In this document: one piece after another, positions 22,117-33,509 of the stretch | Layout of the letters: each line of letters opens with the position of its first letter | How positions within the stretch are numbered: the first letter of the stretch is position 1 | From: a virus | Direction: 5' to 3' (one strand) | IMG/VR virus record: IMGVR_UViG_3300020469_002318 | Coordinates: 1-33,509 of that record | Length of the DNA stretch: 33,509 nucleotides | The notes under the pieces: model-generated | Seen by the model: only the letters and a program-made list of their open reading frames with translations | The model's database searches: none | What the model was told of the DNA's origin: nothing | Translations under genes and position numbers: made by a program

Positions 22117-22353
22117 TTATTCGACTCCAGCATTCCAATCTTTGAATGATGATTGCAGTTGTCCCTTGTTTTCTTCAGCATAATCATCTGCATAACCCTT
22201 CATCTTCTTCCATTCGTTATGCAAGGCACCTAATATCCATGACTGAGAAAGACTTTTAGGTCCATGCTCAAGTAGTTCTAGGTATCTTTTGTTGGTTGTG
22301 TAGTCTTTGTATTCCTGTCTCCAGTTGGAGTCGTCGTAGGATTTATTTTTCAT
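22117..22353 (-). CDS. Unknown 78-residue phage protein
   Basis: The product is helical and charged (WRQEYKDYTTNKRYLELLEHG, SQSWILGALHNEWKKMKGYADDYAEENKG) with no membrane segment or recognised motif. It overlaps the end of the basic protein gene by 11 bases, so it is translated with it. It is probably a small virion or scaffold-associated protein, going only on context. Confidence 0.6.
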   Translation of the reverse strand: MKNKSYDDSNWRQEYKDYTTNKRYLELLEHGPKSLSQSWILGALHNEWKKMKGYADDYAEENKGQLQSSFKDWNAGVE

Positions 22354-22822
22354 AAGTAAATGTTTTTCCTTTGATTTGTGTTACACCCTCTGGTGATTTA
22401 CCTTGGGGTTTAAATTTGCCTATACCCTTTCTCTTCGTCTTACCCAATCCACCCTTTCTAGTTGCACTTAATGAAGCACTCTTTTTAGTTTGTACAATGA
22501 CTGCATCCTGATCATACTTCTTACCCAACTTCTTAATTTCTTTCTTGAACTTTCTCTTACCTTTCTTGCCAGACGAAACTACATGACTGCGTTCACTTCC
22601 TCCTTCCCATTTACCTTTCGTTTTCGTAGGACCAGGAAGACCACGACCACGAATATCTTTATCTAATTGTTTGTTTCTTGCTTTATTTTCTTTGGAAGAC
22701 TTACCAGTACGAGTTCCAGAGAGGACTGCCATGCCTCCCTTATCTGATTTACTTTTAATACGGCTTAAACTACTCTCCTGTACTTGAGAGCATTCTAGCA
22801 TGAATTGTGTAAATGTCTTCAT
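22343..22822 (-). CDS. Very basic internal-head-like protein with capsid-targeting-type leader
   Basis: The 159-residue protein starts MKTFTQFMLE followed by Cys. T4 internal protein IPIII starts MKTYQEFIAE, a ten-residue leader that targets proteins into the prohead and is cut by the gp21 protease after (I/L)xE. MLE here fits with Leu. The rest is about one third Lys plus Arg (for example KKGKRKFKKEIKKLGKKY) and should bind DNA. I read it as a protein packed in the head with the genome. No other family match is known to me. Confidence 0.65.
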   Translation of the reverse strand: MKTFTQFMLECSQVQESSLSRIKSKSDKGGMAVLSGTRTGKSSKENKARNKQLDKDIRGRGLPGPTKTKGKWEGGSERSHVVSSGKKGKRKFKKEIKKLGKKYDQDAVIVQTKKSASLSATRKGGLGKTKRKGIGKFKPQGKSPEGVTQIKGKTFTYEK

Positions 22823-27374: not shown

Positions 27375-27756
27375 TGCGTACAGTTTCTTCTAATATTATA
27401 CTTGCTGCCTGTGCATTAGTCAAGACTGGTTTAATTATTCTTTGTCCGACTGGACTAACCAAGAAAGATATAACAGCAATAGAACCAGCGATAGTCCACA
27501 TTTTCTTTTCCATCGTTCTAAGACGGTCATCGACTTTTCTGATGTCTCTCTCGCATCCTTTCTTGATTTCATCTGTCTTACGAGTTACTTCTCTGTGAAC
27601 ACTATCAACCTTTTCAAATAAAACAGCATCAATCCTATCTTGCTTATCAAGTTTTTCGTTATGAACAGCAAGAAGTTGTCCCATCTTTACAGAGTTTTCC
27701 TGTAAGGTTGAGACAACTTTTTCCAATCTTTCTAGTATGGCAGAATTTACATCCAT
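27343..27756 (-). CDS. Coiled-coil protein with one membrane helix
   Basis: The 137-residue protein has a long helical, heptad-like region (about 1-88; LERLEKVVSTL, EKVDSVHREVTRKTDEIKKG), a hydrophobic segment (about 88-103, WTIAGSIAVISFLVSP) and a polar tail. The layout resembles XhlA-like or spanin-type phage lysis accessory proteins, but no family is sure. It overlaps the primase start by 32 bases and the next gene upstream by 10. Confidence 0.6.
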   Translation of the reverse strand: MDVNSAILERLEKVVSTLQENSVKMGQLLAVHNEKLDKQDRIDAVLFEKVDSVHREVTRKTDEIKKGCERDIRKVDDRLRTMEKKMWTIAGSIAVISFLVSPVGQRIIKPVLTNAQAASIILEETVRIDGSDRLEIY

Positions 27757-27956
27757 CGTTTTCTAGACCCTGCACCACCGTACAAATATCGCTTCAAAGG
27801 TTTTTTGTCTTTTTTCTTTTTACCGAGACCTTTATCATAACCAGCAACTGGTCCTTTAGCATCTGCATTAGAGCCAAATCCACCACTCTGCCCGACTGCA
27901 TTGCCGACCATTTCTTCTTTAACAAGTTTAATGATCCTAGCAAGGCGACGATCCAT
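27747..27956 (-). CDS. Small Gly/Lys-rich protein (69 residues)
   Basis: The start is set at 27956, where the ATG overlaps the previous stop as TAATG; a longer frame adds nine residues inside the upstream gene. An N-terminal helix (ARIIKLVKEEMVG) leads to a Gly-rich loop, a basic run (KKKKDKK) and the ending YLYGGAGSRKRWM, a type of ending I recall from small cyanophage virion-associated proteins. Function is unknown. Confidence 0.6.
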   Translation of the reverse strand: MDRRLARIIKLVKEEMVGNAVGQSGGFGSNADAKGPVAGYDKGLGKKKKDKKPLKRYLYGGAGSRKRWM

Positions 27957-28327
27957 TAGATATCTCGTAATTGTTCCAGACAATAATTATCATCAACAAT
28001 ATTATTTAGTTCAGTGGAAGGATATTCTGGTATCCTACCAAGATAAGAAAGGAAACTCTTAGTGCAAGACCATAGTTCCTTATCCAACTTGAAAAATAAC
28101 AAAGGCACTCCTGCATCACCAAAGACATTAAAAAGGACTATAAAATGATTCAGAATCAGATGAGTTCTTAACTCGCCACTGTTCTTATATCGTTTCAGTA
28201 GTCTTTTTATGTATTTTATTCGTTTTAAATCATCATAAAAGTCATCCTCAGTTACTGCCTGAGGATTTTCATAATTTTTTATAGCGAAAAGGAGATAGTT
28301 ACTATCATTCAGTTCATCAAATCTCAT
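27956..28327 (-). CDS. Unknown 123-residue phage protein
   Basis: The protein is soluble and mostly helical. A basic central helix (IKYIKRLLKRYKNSGELRTHLILNH in two pieces, about 36-60) is followed by a hydrophobic stretch (FIVLFNVFGDAGVPLLFF) and an acidic end. The central pattern recalls a domain found in many T4-like phages that lacks a known role. It is coupled to the next gene by TAATG. Confidence 0.6.
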   Translation of the reverse strand: MRFDELNDSNYLLFAIKNYENPQAVTEDDFYDDLKRIKYIKRLLKRYKNSGELRTHLILNHFIVLFNVFGDAGVPLLFFKLDKELWSCTKSFLSYLGRIPEYPSTELNNIVDDNYCLEQLRDI

Positions 28328-28348: not shown

Positions 28349-28852
28349 TTATTCGTCAGTAGGATATGCAATACCGTTAGCACCTGTAGACACACCAGAC
28401 ATAGCAACTAGAGTTTCAGATTTTACTCTGAGAGAACCGTGCATATCAATATATGTCGTTACACCTACCCATCCTTGGTGTCCTACATGGTAGGAACCTG
28501 ATGTCTCAGTTGATATACCATAGACTAGCGAATCATACTCTGATCGATCCTCCTGATATACACTATCTAACACTGAACTCTTAGGAAGTTCACTGATATA
28601 ATAGCTTGTTGCCGAGATACTTACTGCAGATAAACCTGCTGTAGTATCTATGGTTAGTATTCTGTCACTAGTTATACCTGTGACTACTGCATCGCCGTAA
28701 TAAGTACCGACTCCGCCTCTTGCTCCTACTCGGATTACCTGTCCGACAGTTACATCGGATGTGAAGGTAGTACCAGTACCTGTGACAGTTGTACCGTCAA
28801 CTGCTACTGTACCAAAAGTAGCAATGTTATCATTGTTGCCCCACAGAGCCAT
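28349..28852 (-). CDS. Beta-rich structural protein (probable virion surface or tail)
   Basis: The 167-residue protein starts MALWGNNDN and consists of Gly/Thr/Val-rich strand repeats (GTVAVDGTTVTGTGTTFTSD, then VGQVIRVG) with no helix. Starts of the type MALWGN followed by VDGTTVTGT strands occur in cyanophage structural proteins. It has its own late-type promoter at 28886-28893, in line with a late virion gene. Its exact place in the virion is unknown. Confidence 0.72.
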   Translation of the reverse strand: MALWGNNDNIATFGTVAVDGTTVTGTGTTFTSDVTVGQVIRVGARGGVGTYYGDAVVTGITSDRILTIDTTAGLSAVSISATSYYISELPKSSVLDSVYQEDRSEYDSLVYGISTETSGSYHVGHQGWVGVTTYIDMHGSLRVKSETLVAMSGVSTGANGIAYPTDE

Positions 28853-29112: not shown

Positions 29113-29814
29113 TCAGTCGTATTTCTTTTTACCACCAACCATTCTACCTGATCCTTTTTTATCAAAGAATTTGATGCCATGCTTCTTCATATCTGAGTAC
29201 TGAGCATCTTTCTTTTTCTTGTCTGTTTGTTTTCTTTTCACTCTTTCCCTCGCTGCTTGTGCGTTTTTCATAAAGTCTTTATAACTTGTTAGGTCTTCTT
29301 CTAACTTCTTTGTTGCTTTTTGAATGCCAGAGTATCTTTTACCAACTTTTTTCATGTCATTATCAATTGCTGCACCTGCCATATCAGCAGAAGATTTCCT
29401 GACATAACTTCCTAATGTTTTCTTTTTAAGTTCTGAAAGATAATCTTCCCTTGTTACACCTGCCTTTGATCTTTCTCTTTCAGCAACTGATTTGATAAGC
29501 ATTTTTAATACTGCTCTCTTTCCAAATGGATTTTTCTTTTTCTTAGGATGTGTCATTGCAATTTCATTGACACTATGCTTCTTACCTTTCATTAACATAC
29601 CATCTGGCATTACATGATAACCTTCTGGTATTGCTTTACACTTTTGCTCATCCTTACAAAAGTATTGTCCTTTACCACATTTTGTAGATTCGCTTCTAGT
29701 TATTTTTTCATCCTTCTCATTGCTTGCAAGATTCTTCTTAAGTTTTTTCTTTGAAATTTTCGGACCACCGATTAGATCACCATACTCATCTCGGTACTCT
29801 TCTTTCCAGTTCAT
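29113..29814 (-). CDS. Lysine-rich probable virion protein with Cys motif
   Basis: The 233-residue protein has a short Cys cluster (KCGKGQYFCKDEQKCKAIPEG, about 46-65, CxxxxxxxCxxxxxC) and a later block (KKTLGSYVRKSSADMAGAA, about 131-149) followed by MKKVGKRYSGIQKATKKL. Both block types recur in T4-like cyanophage proteins of unknown structure. The end is very basic. It is coupled to the next gene upstream by a one-base overlap. A role in the head with packaged DNA is inferred. Confidence 0.65.
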   Translation of the reverse strand: MNWKEEYRDEYGDLIGGPKISKKKLKKNLASNEKDEKITRSESTKCGKGQYFCKDEQKCKAIPEGYHVMPDGMLMKGKKHSVNEIAMTHPKKKKNPFGKRAVLKMLIKSVAERERSKAGVTREDYLSELKKKTLGSYVRKSSADMAGAAIDNDMKKVGKRYSGIQKATKKLEEDLTSYKDFMKNAQAARERVKRKQTDKKKKDAQYSDMKKHGIKFFDKKGSGRMVGGKKKYD

Positions 29815-30254
29815 TATAATTCACCCTTTGCAATCTTTGCCTTTACTACATCCATAGCAGTAGCACCCTTACCATACTTTTTCTCAGTTTGTTTTTGAAG
29901 AACAGTCTTACCTTTTATCTTTTCATTATCAGGTGTGCGTCTACTTGGGGTGCTCTTACTAGAACCACCACCTGTACCATACTTCACAAGTTTATCATCT
30001 CTCATTCTATCATAACCTTCTTCAGGAATATAATCTTCTCTCTTATATGCTGGAACCTTTGCTCCTTTCACACCTCTTCTAGACTTGTGCTCCTCTCTAC
30101 GCTTATCAATAGTCTTTCCTCTCTTATTCTCCGAATCAAACATTGCAGGTTCACCATGTCCTGGTCCAGACCTTCTGTAATTTCTTATAGATGCTTTACC
30201 GTAATCAGATCTACCCTTATCTACTTTTGCCTCAGCTAGATTTTTTTTTTTCAT
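29814..30254 (-). CDS. Basic Ser/Lys-rich phage protein, start in an A11 run
   Basis: The 146-residue protein begins MKKKNLAEAKVDKGRSDYG and is very rich in Lys, Arg and Gly, ending DVVKAKIAKGEL. Its start codon and first codons lie in a run of eleven A at the end of the upstream gene, 23 bases before that gene stops. Slippage in the run would fuse the two products. Low complexity and context suggest a DNA-associated virion protein. Confidence 0.6.
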   Translation of the reverse strand: MKKKNLAEAKVDKGRSDYGKASIRNYRRSGPGHGEPAMFDSENKRGKTIDKRREEHKSRRGVKGAKVPAYKREDYIPEEGYDRMRDDKLVKYGTGGGSSKSTPSRRTPDNEKIKGKTVLQKQTEKKYGKGATAMDVVKAKIAKGEL

Positions 30255-30909
30255 ACATTAACCAAGTGCTTTCGGTCAATGCTGCTTTAGGATTATATGA
30301 TTCCATGCCTTGTTTTCGCATGAATTCTTTGAATGCTGGAGAGTTGATTCCTCTCTTAGGATCTTTCATCCTGTTTGCCTTTGATCTCTCTCTGTATGGT
30401 TTATCAGATTCATCATCAGGTTTTGAACTCTCAGGATTTCTCATTGCACGGTAGTTTTCCTGTGCTTCTTCTTCTGGAATATATTCTTCCTCTTTCATAT
30501 GGTCTGCTGCTTTATATAAAGGCTTACCATCTTTACCTTTCATACCTTTCTTATAGTTCTGGTATGCTGGCGTATTACCTTTCTTGTCAGCATTAGTAAC
30601 AGTCATTTCCTCAGTTGATAACTGTGCTATTGCTTCCTCAATACTTGGATTAATTTTAATACTATTCTTTACTTTCTTTTCTTTAATAGTTTCTTCTTTT
30701 TCATCAGAAGTTGCAGCGTCTTTAGACCTATACATCTTAGTTGCATCTTTTCTCTCTTGGAGATCATGAGCAATCTTCTCAGCAATCTCTCTGCGTAATT
30801 TCTCAGCAGGAGATTCCTCTACAATCGGTTCCTCGATTATAGATTCGGTAAAGACATTCTGAATACTATTAAGTATCAGTGTCTTGGCAGTTTCATCAAT
30901 GTTACGCAT
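30232..30909 (-). CDS. Charged repeat-like phage protein
   Basis: The 225-residue protein has a helical, acidic N-terminus (ETAKTLILNSIQNVFTESI; EEPIVEESPAEKLRREIAEK) and a lower-complexity C-terminal half with two similar units, TPAYQNYKKGMKGKDGKP and SPAFKEFMRKQGMES. It ends MYEKKKSS in an A11 run. A late-type promoter lies 32 bases upstream. The role is unknown; its neighbours suggest a virion protein. Confidence 0.6.
   Translation of the reverse strand: MRNIDETAKTLILNSIQNVFTESIIEEPIVEESPAEKLRREIAEKIAHDLQERKDATKMYRSKDAATSDEKEETIKEKKVKNSIKINPSIEEAIAQLSTEEMTVTNADKKGNTPAYQNYKKGMKGKDGKPLYKAADHMKEEEYIPEEEAQENYRAMRNPESSKPDDESDKPYRERSKANRMKDPKRGINSPAFKEFMRKQGMESYNPKAALTESTWLMYEKKKSS
30241..30251 (-). 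repeat. A11 homopolymer in overlapping coding ends
   Basis: Eleven consecutive A on the minus strand (T on the plus strand) lie where genes 30232-30909 and 29814-30254 overlap. A +1 shift, or a transcript lacking one A, joins the upstream frame to the downstream one. Confidence 0.8.
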
Positions 30910-30920
30910 CGAAGCTTTCT

Positions 30921-32129
30921 CTACGCTTTCTTCTTAGTTTTATTTATAAACGACTTAACCTTCTCTAATGGAGTTAGTTGCTGTACATACTCACGATAAG
31001 AGTCTGTACCCACTCCTCTCATGGATGCAGGAACACCAGAGACAGGTCTTTTAGTTACATATTCACTCAAATCTTTTATCCAAGATTTAAACATCAGTCC
31101 TTCGTTAGTCACTGCTATGACATAGTTTGCACCTCTACGAACTATTCTACCAATCAAGCCATGGTTTAAATTTTCTACCAGATTTCCTATATCAAACAGT
31201 TTTTTATCAAGATATATTTCTCTCAGCGTGTTTCCTGCAAGTTTAGGAGCAATCTGCCACAATTCTACACCCTCAGTCTTAGCAGCAGCACCCATAGATT
31301 TCTGTACTGTGTTAAATAATTCTCTTGCAACTACACCTTTAGCTGCTTTTGGAAGACCTTTTTTAAATGATTCAAAGTCTCCATCTGCTGCTAACGCTCG
31401 TAGTTTGGAAGCAGACATGCCCTCGACACCTTCAGCATCGGGATCCCTTTCTCCTGCGGAAATAACATTAATCGCGTCAAAATTATAGAGTTCCCCGTTG
31501 TATTTGTTTGCGATCCCCTCAAACTCTTTCTGTCTGTCAGCACCAACAACGATATTAACGCTGGAGTACCCTTGTGTGTCGGCTTGTGATAACGCATCGA
31601 ATATAGTACGAACTGATGGATCATATACAATGTTATTGGTATGATCTGGAAATAATTTTTTCATAAAAAGAACCTTTTCCTCGGTGTCGAGTGGATTCTT
31701 TTGAGGATCTACTGAGTGTGATGGATATATTGTGTACTCTCCTTCCTGTGCTGTGTCTGCAATCTTACTAAGAAGTTTTTCATGACCAGCAGTAGGTGGA
31801 TTAAATCTTCCAAAACCAATGGTTAATGTACCACGAGTTTTTTCTACTGGTTCTTGCTCTGCTGGTTCTTCTGGTTGTGCTTGTGGTGTAGCAGGTGGAC
31901 CTTGATCGGGTACAACACCACGAGCAGCCATTCCTGGTTTAGTAGGATCAGTTTCTTGTGCTGGTTTGCGACCACTATTAAAAACTAATTCACCTTCAAT
32001 AGTACGACCTACAATTCTTCCATTAGGATCCAACCATGAACCATGACCATCCCCAGTCAAACCAAGCTTTGATGCTTGCTTTGCTGCGTTAGTCTGAGCT
32101 TCAGTTATGAATTGTGCAAAATTTTTCAT
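30921..32129 (-). CDS. Nucleotidyltransferase with capsid-targeting-type leader
   Basis: I start at the ATG at 32129, right after the oxygenase stop and about 40 bases below a late-type promoter; a frame 12 codons longer runs into that gene. The 402-residue protein starts MKNFAQFITE then Ala, like T4 IPIII (MKTYQEFIAE), with ITE fitting the gp21 cleavage rule. A Pro/Gln-rich linker (about 55-98) leads to a cytidylyltransferase-like fold: GFGRFNPPTAGH (105-116; the (H/T)xGH motif) and GMSASKLR (237-244; the SSTKIR-like motif). Such enzymes join NMP to phosphorylated substrates, for example NMN. It is probably packed in the head, so an enzyme delivered or used in the capsid is possible. Confidence 0.78.
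   Translation of the reverse strand: MKNFAQFITEAQTNAAKQASKLGLTGDGHGSWLDPNGRIVGRTIEGELVFNSGRKPAQETDPTKPGMAARGVVPDQGPPATPQAQPEEPAEQEPVEKTRGTLTIGFGRFNPPTAGHEKLLSKIADTAQEGEYTIYPSHSVDPQKNPLDTEEKVLFMKKLFPDHTNNIVYDPSVRTIFDALSQADTQGYSSVNIVVGADRQKEFEGIANKYNGELYNFDAINVISAGERDPDAEGVEGMSASKLRALAADGDFESFKKGLPKAAKGVVARELFNTVQKSMGAAAKTEGVELWQIAPKLAGNTLREIYLDKKLFDIGNLVENLNHGLIGRIVRRGANYVIAVTNEGLMFKSWIKDLSEYVTKRPVSGVPASMRGVGTDSYREYVQQLTPLEKVKSFINKTKKKA
30941..30948 (-). promoter_or_regulatory. T4-late-type promoter octamer inside a coding end
   Basis: An exact TATAAATA lies within the last codons of the nucleotidyltransferase gene, 32 bases before the ATG at 30909 of the next gene. Confidence 0.6.
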
Positions 32130-32130
32130 T

Positions 32131-32742
32131 CTATTCAGCAAACACTCTTCTGGTATCCTCTGCAATCTTATTTATATTGAATGATATAGTCATACGAAGA
32201 TTTTTAGTATTGTTTTTTCTAACACAGTGTTTTAAATGTGATGGGAAAATTATTAAGTCTCCCTCTACAACATCAAATTTAGTACTCTCTTTTAAATGAG
32301 AATTCTTTTCTTCATCCATAAAACTATCATCAAACATAAAAGAATATACATCCATCTGAGGATTCATAAACACTGTAGGACTATGAACCTTAGGGTCATA
32401 ACAAATATAATGTACTGCAGAAAAGAATCCTGGTAAATGAGAGTGTGGTTCTTGGAAATTAGATTCTTCATAAGCATTCATCCAAATCTCATCGATATAT
32501 GGTCTATGTTTTAAACCAATATCTTCCTTAAACTGTCGTAAAATAAAATTATAATACTCCTTGAAATGTTTAGGGAAAGCACCATCGTACTCAGTTCTTA
32601 CATTACAGTTCCATCCAGTAGGAGTTTCATTAACAGAATGATCCTTGTATGAGTTGTATCTATCAAGCATGTATGCTTTCAAGTCTGTAACATCTAGATT
32701 GTATTTGTACATTCTAGTCGGAAAGATATCATAATAAGACAT
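32131..32742 (-). CDS. 2OG/Fe(II) oxygenase, TIGR02466-like (second copy of the group)
   Basis: I start at the ATG at 32742; a TTG-started version is seven residues longer. The 203-residue protein begins YYDIFPTRMYKYNL, then has H100-S-H102 (EPHSHLPGFFSAVHY) and GDLIIFPSHLKHCV (161-174) with distal H172, and R183 (LRMTISFNIN). It belongs to the same group as 18330-18977, which also ends its metal site at H172 and R183. Here it stands far from the other oxygenases, between a lysine-rich gene and the nucleotidyltransferase. Confidence 0.8.
   Translation of the reverse strand: MSYYDIFPTRMYKYNLDVTDLKAYMLDRYNSYKDHSVNETPTGWNCNVRTEYDGAFPKHFKEYYNFILRQFKEDIGLKHRPYIDEIWMNAYEESNFQEPHSHLPGFFSAVHYICYDPKVHSPTVFMNPQMDVYSFMFDDSFMDEEKNSHLKESTKFDVVEGDLIIFPSHLKHCVRKNNTKNLRMTISFNINKIAEDTRRVFAE
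32169..32176 (-). promoter_or_regulatory. T4-late-type promoter octamer inside a coding end
   Basis: An exact TATAAATA lies in the C-terminal codons of the oxygenase gene, 40 bases before the chosen ATG at 32129. It supports both the shorter start and late expression of the nucleotidyltransferase. Confidence 0.6.
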
Positions 32743-32747
32743 ATTTT

Positions 32748-33509
32748 TTACTGTAGTTTCCAATATACAGAAGACTTATCTGACTGTGATGATGCGTACA
32801 AATATATCTCTTTCATTATCTGATCAGCATCTTTGTGTGACGATACCCAATCTAATAATTTTAATCCTGCATATTTACTATACTTCCATGCTTGTTCTGC
32901 CTCTGTTTTAATCCATGCTAAATCAGTTGCTTTATTCTTTAAACCCTTTGCTTTATATTTTACCAGTAATTTATAAATCTCGTCATCCAACTTACCATTC
33001 TTAGCATTAGTCCAAGTATCTGCTCCACCATACTCAGGTAGTGTACCAAACTTACCATCCTTTAATAGTTCTTGTACCTTCTTACCTTGTATCTTACCCT
33101 GTGCAGCAGACTTACCTTTCAATTCTAACTTCCAATCACCCTTAGTAGGACCACCAAAATTTCTTGCTTGAAACTTCTCAAAGGTACTTGTACCATAGTA
33201 TAGATACACATCCATAGGGTGACTATCTTTCTGTCTACCATTGTCAAATGTTAAATCATACTTTTCAAACTTTGCTTTTTCATTTTTCTTTCTCTCTACA
33301 GCAGGTATATCGTTCAACAGTTTCATCTTAGGTGAACCTTCAATCTTCTTCAAAGATATACCAACCAACTGTTCATCTATTCTCAATTGTAATAGAGCAT
33401 TATTTAAACAATCAATAGTAGTTTCTTTATCAAGATGTTTCTTTACTTTAGTCTTATCTTTTACCATCCATATATCAGCAGGATTCCATTTGTCTTCTGA
33501 TGATAAGTT
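32748..33509 (-). CDS. Unknown lysine-rich phage protein (5' end outside the window)
   Basis: An ATG at 33467 is in frame, but the frame stays open to the window edge and reads SSEDKWNPADIWMVKDK, which looks like true protein, so the gene very probably begins beyond 33509. The visible 253 residues are rich in Lys with scattered Trp (GDWKLELKGKSAAQGK, AWIKTEAEQAWKYS) and end SSVYWKLQ. The WNPADIW stretch followed by a basic domain hints at a nucleic-acid enzyme, but I recognise no family. The gene downstream starts five bases after its stop. Confidence 0.65.
   Translation of the reverse strand, partial: NLSSEDKWNPADIWMVKDKTKVKKHLDKETTIDCLNNALLQLRIDEQLVGISLKKIEGSPKMKLLNDIPAVERKKNEKAKFEKYDLTFDNGRQKDSHPMDVYLYYGTSTFEKFQARNFGGPTKGDWKLELKGKSAAQGKIQGKKVQELLKDGKFGTLPEYGGADTWTNAKNGKLDDEIYKLLVKYKAKGLKNKATDLAWIKTEAEQAWKYSKYAGLKLLDWVSSHKDADQIMKEIYLYASSQSDKSSVYWKLQ

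Follow-up and report, generated by a model that had tools for sequence, protein, structure and literature searches.

The internal proteins IPI, IPII and IPIII of bacteriophage T4 are small basic proteins that begin with a ten-residue leader in the register M1 K2 x3 [YF]4 x5 x6 F7 I8 x9 E10/A (the slash, here and below, marks the cleavage position); in the T4 record, ipII and ipIII start with MKTYQEFIAE/A and ipI with MKTFKEF. Ten residues are enough for the incorporation of IPIII, with residues 4 and 7 acting in targeting and residues 8 and 10 in processing (PMC9026906). A precedent for a head-packed enzyme that is ejected with the DNA is the T4 Alt ADP-ribosyltransferase, as noted in the T4 record, although its leader (MELITE/L) and its chemistry differ from those of the protein described here. 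In cyanophages, the SAM hydrolase gp6 of S-CREM2, comparable to phage SAM lyases, is a leader-bearing virion enzyme whose catalytic domain is unlike that of a nucleotidyltransferase. The closest system is the cyanophage family PHROG 395 (T4-GC190), which was placed among the cyanophage core proteins by Sullivan and colleagues (PMC3037559); since its virion association has been reported from 2010 on, this is already known and not new. Here we describe a member of this family in which the first ten residues are probably a T4-type capsid targeting sequence, by which the enzyme would be packed, trimmed and injected with a set of similarly tagged proteins.

We analyzed a stretch of DNA of 33,509 nucleotides from a virus of ocean cyanobacteria (IMG/VR record IMGVR_UViG_3300020469_002318, positions 1 to 33,509; hereafter the window). 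An ORF encoding 402 aa lies on the minus strand (30921-32129), with an ATG start at 32129 and the N-terminus MKNFAQFITEAQTN...; a TTG at 32165 is an alternative start that would lengthen the protein by 12 aa, homology, however, begins at the ATG. The protein falls into PHROG 395 ('cytidyltransferase'; E 7e-98), and PF01467 (cytidylyltransferase-like superfamily) scored 22.8 bits, just above the gathering cut-off of 21. Matches were found in 558 phage records, covering at least 80% of the length in 382, mostly Synechococcus and Prochlorococcus myoviruses; the virion protein ORF91 of S-SCSM1 is 48% identical over the full length. The layout of the ORF is as follows.

30921-32129, minus strand: whole ORF, comprising leader, mini-domain, Pro/Glu-rich variable linker, nucleotidyltransferase and C-terminal beta domain
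32100-32129, minus strand: leader MKNFAQFITE (residues 1-10), resembling a capsid targeting sequence, with the cut predicted after E10 (conservation, mapping onto T4)
31974-32096, minus strand: mini-domain of about 40 residues, 12-52, LGLTGDGHGSWLDPNGRIVGRTIEGELVF (HMM search)
31344-31829, minus strand: nucleotidyltransferase core, residues ~101-262 (PF01467, AlphaFold2, Foldseek)
31782-31811, minus strand: motif GRFNPPTAGH (T/HxGH), near-invariant in the alignment of 38 homologues
31398-31418, minus strand: motif MSASKLR (SxSKxR), residues 238-244, conserved in the alignment of 38 homologues
31059-31268, minus strand: C-terminal beta domain, residues 288-357, VENLNHGLIGRIVRRGANYVIAV...FKSWIKD (AlphaFold2 model)

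Among the loci searched, the C-terminal beta domain was confined to nucleotidyltransferase ORFs; it is matched by PHROG 4808, whose label (ribonucleotide reductase alpha subunit) looks wrong. Relatives outside the cyanophages (HTVC008M, L184:3950-5740; DLP6, L185:2297-4465) have different N-termini and long C-terminal additions.

The genes flanking the ORF match a block of S-SCSM1 (ORFs 89-97) that is mostly annotated as virion proteins, and the locus is syntenic with that of described family members. These neighbors and two further features of the window are listed below.

27747-27983, minus strand: neighbor ORF, partly related to two virion proteins (S-SCSM1 ORF97 and S-CREM2 gp160)
28349-28852, minus strand: neighbor ORF, related to S-SCSM1 ORF95 (virion protein), 47% identity
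29113-29814, minus strand: neighbor ORF, related to PSSM7_194 (start MKTYSQFIEE/G)
29814-30254, minus strand: neighbor ORF, its C-terminal domain fused directly to a leader in other loci
30232-30909, minus strand: neighbor ORF, related to S-SCSM1 ORF89 (virion protein)
32748-33467, minus strand: neighbor ORF, its 5' part cut off by the end of the window, related to virion protein ORF90 of S-SCSM1
32169-32176, minus strand: T4-type late promoter box, exact TATAAATA, about 40 nt upstream of the 402-aa ORF
22343-22822, minus strand: second leader-bearing ORF, MKTFTQFMLE/C followed by a SAM lyase (PF23780), strongly basic

The C-terminal domain of ORF 29814-30254 is fused to a leader in six IMG/VR loci (MKTFKQFIGE/EGYDHMRD...). 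PSSM7_194 was considered as an additional confirmed virion example and dropped, the S-SM1 member of its cluster being devoid of a leader. The box upstream of the 402-aa ORF agrees with the late-type promoter of the original prediction. Its count alone is no evidence, because the window holds 4 copies of TATAAATA where 4.2 are expected; three of the four sit just upstream of genes in the block of the 402-aa ORF. The box was found upstream of 7 of 80 homologues against a background of 1.2%, and with so few homologues carrying it and a copy number at chance level we rejected the promoter as decisive evidence.

The leader had been likened to that of T4 IPIII, and the parallel holds: both are in identical register (MKTYQEFIAE/A in T4, MKNFAQFITE/A here), with an aromatic residue at 4, F at 7, I/L at 8 and E at 10, and across the alignment of 38 homologues F4, F7 and E10 are invariant. 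All of the 80 best IMG/VR relatives start with MK or MN and carry a recognizable leader. The (I/L)xE cleavage rule, which ITE was proposed to fit, is likewise followed by most of the family: the pattern M..[IL]xE[small] fits 66 of these 80, and most of the remainder either have F at P3 or lack one residue. Some homologues (MKSFFQFLE/S) violate the rule, and the enzyme of Pelagibacter phage HTVC008M is devoid of a leader. In T4 plus four cyanophage genomes the leader core occurs inside proteins at 16 sites per 278,944 residues, a frequency from which 0.2 gene starts carrying it would be expected, versus 10 observed. A search against the T4 internal-protein leaders had been suggested as a check; within T4 the leader pattern recovers IPII and IPIII, together with gp61.1. 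The latter (L099:18966-19130) is a 54-aa protein of unknown function with an internal-protein-like start, MKTFKEFIKE/D, and may be packaged.

ITE/A is the sole [IL]xE[AGSEQ] site within the 402-aa protein, so that the predicted trimming by the protease would be limited to the leader. Moreover, in three phages the leader site resembles the cleavage site of the same phage's major capsid protein, both read from sequence: FLKE/A and FLAE/A in S-SCSM1, FLTE/A and LLTE/A in S-CREM2, and FLNE/A and ILTE/T in S-SM1. An internal [DE]Y[IL]xE motif was also considered as a source of extra protease sites and rejected, as it showed no enrichment among virion proteins.

Virion proteomics of related cyanophages, the other check that had been proposed, is available from published work on orthologues, that is, from phages other than that of the window. 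The orthologue was detected in the virions of S-SM1 (as T4-GC190; PMC3037559), S-SCSM1 (ORF91; PMC9602691), S-SZBM1 (2 peptides; PMC9146016) and S-CREM2 (gp154, 3 peptides; PMC10665884), and was undetected in S-PM2 (PMC3037559). The leaders of the detected orthologues are MKKFSAFLNE/A in S-SM1, MKSFLQFLKE/A in S-SCSM1, MRFRQFIIE/A in S-SZBM1 and MKNFSSFLTE/A in S-CREM2.

We also studied if the leader predicts virion presence. From T4 and the window we derived a strict pattern and tested it on three proteomes: four of five leader genes were virion-detected (P ~0.006), corresponding to two of three distinct families. A relaxed pattern, allowing L at position 4, GTG starts and F at P3, gave 7 of 8 (P ~1e-4) over the same number of proteomes; it is post hoc, having been widened after gp13 and gp14 of S-CREM2 were inspected. 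With this relaxed pattern, S-CREM2 alone has five leader-bearing genes (gp6, gp13, gp14, gp136 and gp154), all virion-detected against a base rate of 24% (P ~6e-4). The leader-bearing ORF30 of S-SCSM1 was undetected in the virion, and the pattern scan of S-SM1 covered ~138 of 174 kb. We take these P values as support and not as proof, because the relaxed pattern is post hoc and homologous genes across phages are not independent.

An abundant, soluble late enzyme could also co-purify with virions, its N-terminal helix having another purpose. Such carry-over is allowed for by the authors of the S-CREM2 study among their virion-detected proteins, it would suit the low peptide counts (2-3) of the orthologues in S-SZBM1 and S-CREM2, and the translational repressor RegA is also on the S-SCSM1 virion list. 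Nevertheless, we consider it unlikely: virion proteomics of four different phages has yielded the orthologue, detection follows the leader in all five S-CREM2 genes, and ribonucleotide reductase, gp32 and PhoH of S-CREM2 are absent from its virion list.

The leader recurs on unrelated proteins. Besides gp154 (the nucleotidyltransferase), the S-CREM2 SAM lyase gp6 is leader-bearing, the virion-detected kinase gp14 combines a leader with two copies of the mini-domain, and gp12, also virion-detected, has a displaced leader-like stretch (LRFASFMAE/A) plus the mini-domain; gp6, gp12, gp14 and gp154 are the four non-structural, non-lysis enzymes on the S-CREM2 virion list. By HMM search, the mini-domain of the 402-aa protein recurs in the HNH protein and the kinase of S-CREM2 (i-Evalues 3.6e-13 and 2.2e-09). 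Since the S-CREM2 and S-SZBM1 orthologues keep the leader without the mini-domain, both elements are separable. gp12 (L091:7704-10313, minus strand) is a Cas9 by annotation, and gave no Pfam match, only an HNH-like motif seen by eye.

In the window, the second leader-bearing ORF (22343-22822) matches PF23780 (S-AdoMet lyase) at 57 bits versus a gathering cut-off of 28, and is 51% identical to the virion-detected S-CREM2 gp6; most of its 80 relatives start with MKT[FY]KEF..E. In S-CRM01, six adjacent genes (131c-126c, L269:4819-9820) have leader-like N-termini, among them a nucleotidyltransferase, a mini-domain protein and a kinase, this last reported as virion-associated. A search with S-CREM2 gp154 yielded one further locus only. 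S-CREM2 has another virion-detected nucleotidyltransferase, gp156 (L093:26012-26725), which is of the NTP_transf_2 type, with a PF01909 score just over the cut-off; S-CRM01 125c looks like it.

The proposal of a virion-borne nucleotidyltransferase, taken up by means of a leader like that of the T4 internal proteins, is thus well supported by the four proteomes, the conservation of the residues mapped as functional in T4 and the co-tagged virion proteins. We propose that, late in infection, F4 and F7 would bind the protein to the scaffold core of the prohead, and that a gp21-type phage protease would cut after E10 (FITE/A), freeing a 392-aa enzyme inside the maturing head; in this the cargo differs from the small basic T4 internal proteins. 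The virion-borne enzyme would then pass with the DNA into the newly infected cell and there probably adenylylate a small molecule, as one of a similarly tagged set (SAM lyase, kinase, HNH nuclease), some with the shared mini-domain, that cyanophages would load in advance for use in the first minutes after infection. Because relatives are found in virions and the same tag is present on other virion enzymes, cyanophages probably inject such a ready-made enzyme set along with their DNA.

There is also a small chance that the leader targets the protein to the head and stays uncut or only partly cut, leaving the enzyme bound to core remnants. The P1' residue is variable (A, S, T, V, N), the P3 residue departs from the rule in some clades, and targeting and processing residues are separable in T4 (PMC9026906); however, the invariance of E10 in the 38-sequence alignment is more than targeting alone would require, and argues for cleavage of the leader.

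As for the enzyme itself, the (T)xGH and SxSKLR motifs of the original prediction are present and conserved: FGRFNPPTAGH (TxGH) lies at residues 106-116, and T/HxGH, GxDR and SxSKxR are conserved in the alignment of 38 homologues. With the T/HxGH and SxSKxR motifs conserved and the canonical HxGH found in a sister clade, catalysis has likely been retained. The core of the AlphaFold2 model is confident (pLDDT ~90), the mini-domain and C-terminal domain being moderate. The nearest solved structures by Foldseek are phosphopantetheine adenylyltransferases and NadD, about equally close, with TM about 0.6-0.7 by target length; these enzymes and NadM share the alpha/beta fold and the T/HxGH and SxS motifs with the 402-aa protein, but identity is 12-20%, and the protein is below all curated NMN/NaMN adenylyltransferase cut-offs of NCBIfam (NadD, 16.4 vs 112.45 bits; NadR, 13.7 vs 341.15; NadM, 13.6 vs 127). 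In sequence searches of the PDB, the single protein gave no match and the profile nothing significant. The suggestion of an NMN- or phosphocholine-type enzyme divides: the fold is near that of NMN/NaMN and phosphopantetheine adenylyltransferases, while phosphocholine cytidylyltransferases were not among the 50 structural matches listed and, with nothing in its favor, the phosphocholine-type reading was rejected. The enzyme class leans to an adenylyltransferase of the NMNAT or phosphopantetheine type, and an NMN/NaMN-type substrate is, tentatively, the likeliest.

A purely structural or scaffolding role in head assembly, with a reused fold and no catalysis after ejection, would suit a marine cyanophage core gene that adjoins a block of virion proteins, and T4 IPIII does influence head assembly (PMC9026906), yet it is improbable in view of the conserved T/HxGH, GxDR and SxSKxR and the HxGH of the sister clade, which suggest retained catalysis.

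Our preferred reading remains that of a packed, trimmed and injected enzyme. In the literature searched (subscription papers and preprints aside), no link between cyanophages and capsid targeting was made, and work on PHROG 395/T4-GC190 describes the leader neither as a capsid signal nor as a module shared among packaged enzymes. Our analysis adds a mechanism of import that can be tested, together with the presence of the same tag on unrelated virion enzymes. By extension, marine and freshwater Kyanoviridae may well load and inject interchangeable enzymes (nucleotidyltransferase, SAM lyase, kinase, HNH nuclease) by one N-terminal module, a T4-type leader to which the GDGHG mini-domain may be added. 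If true, head-packed proteins would be predictable from sequence alone across abundant ocean viruses, the leader pattern providing a simple test for further injected proteins. The tag mechanism would also address a puzzle of cyanophage proteomics, namely why metabolic enzymes are found in purified virions and if they are contamination or not. Finally, it predicts that a SAM-destroying enzyme, suited to blunt restriction-modification, and likewise an adenylyltransferase-like enzyme would be active as soon as infection begins, in viruses that are very common in the ocean.
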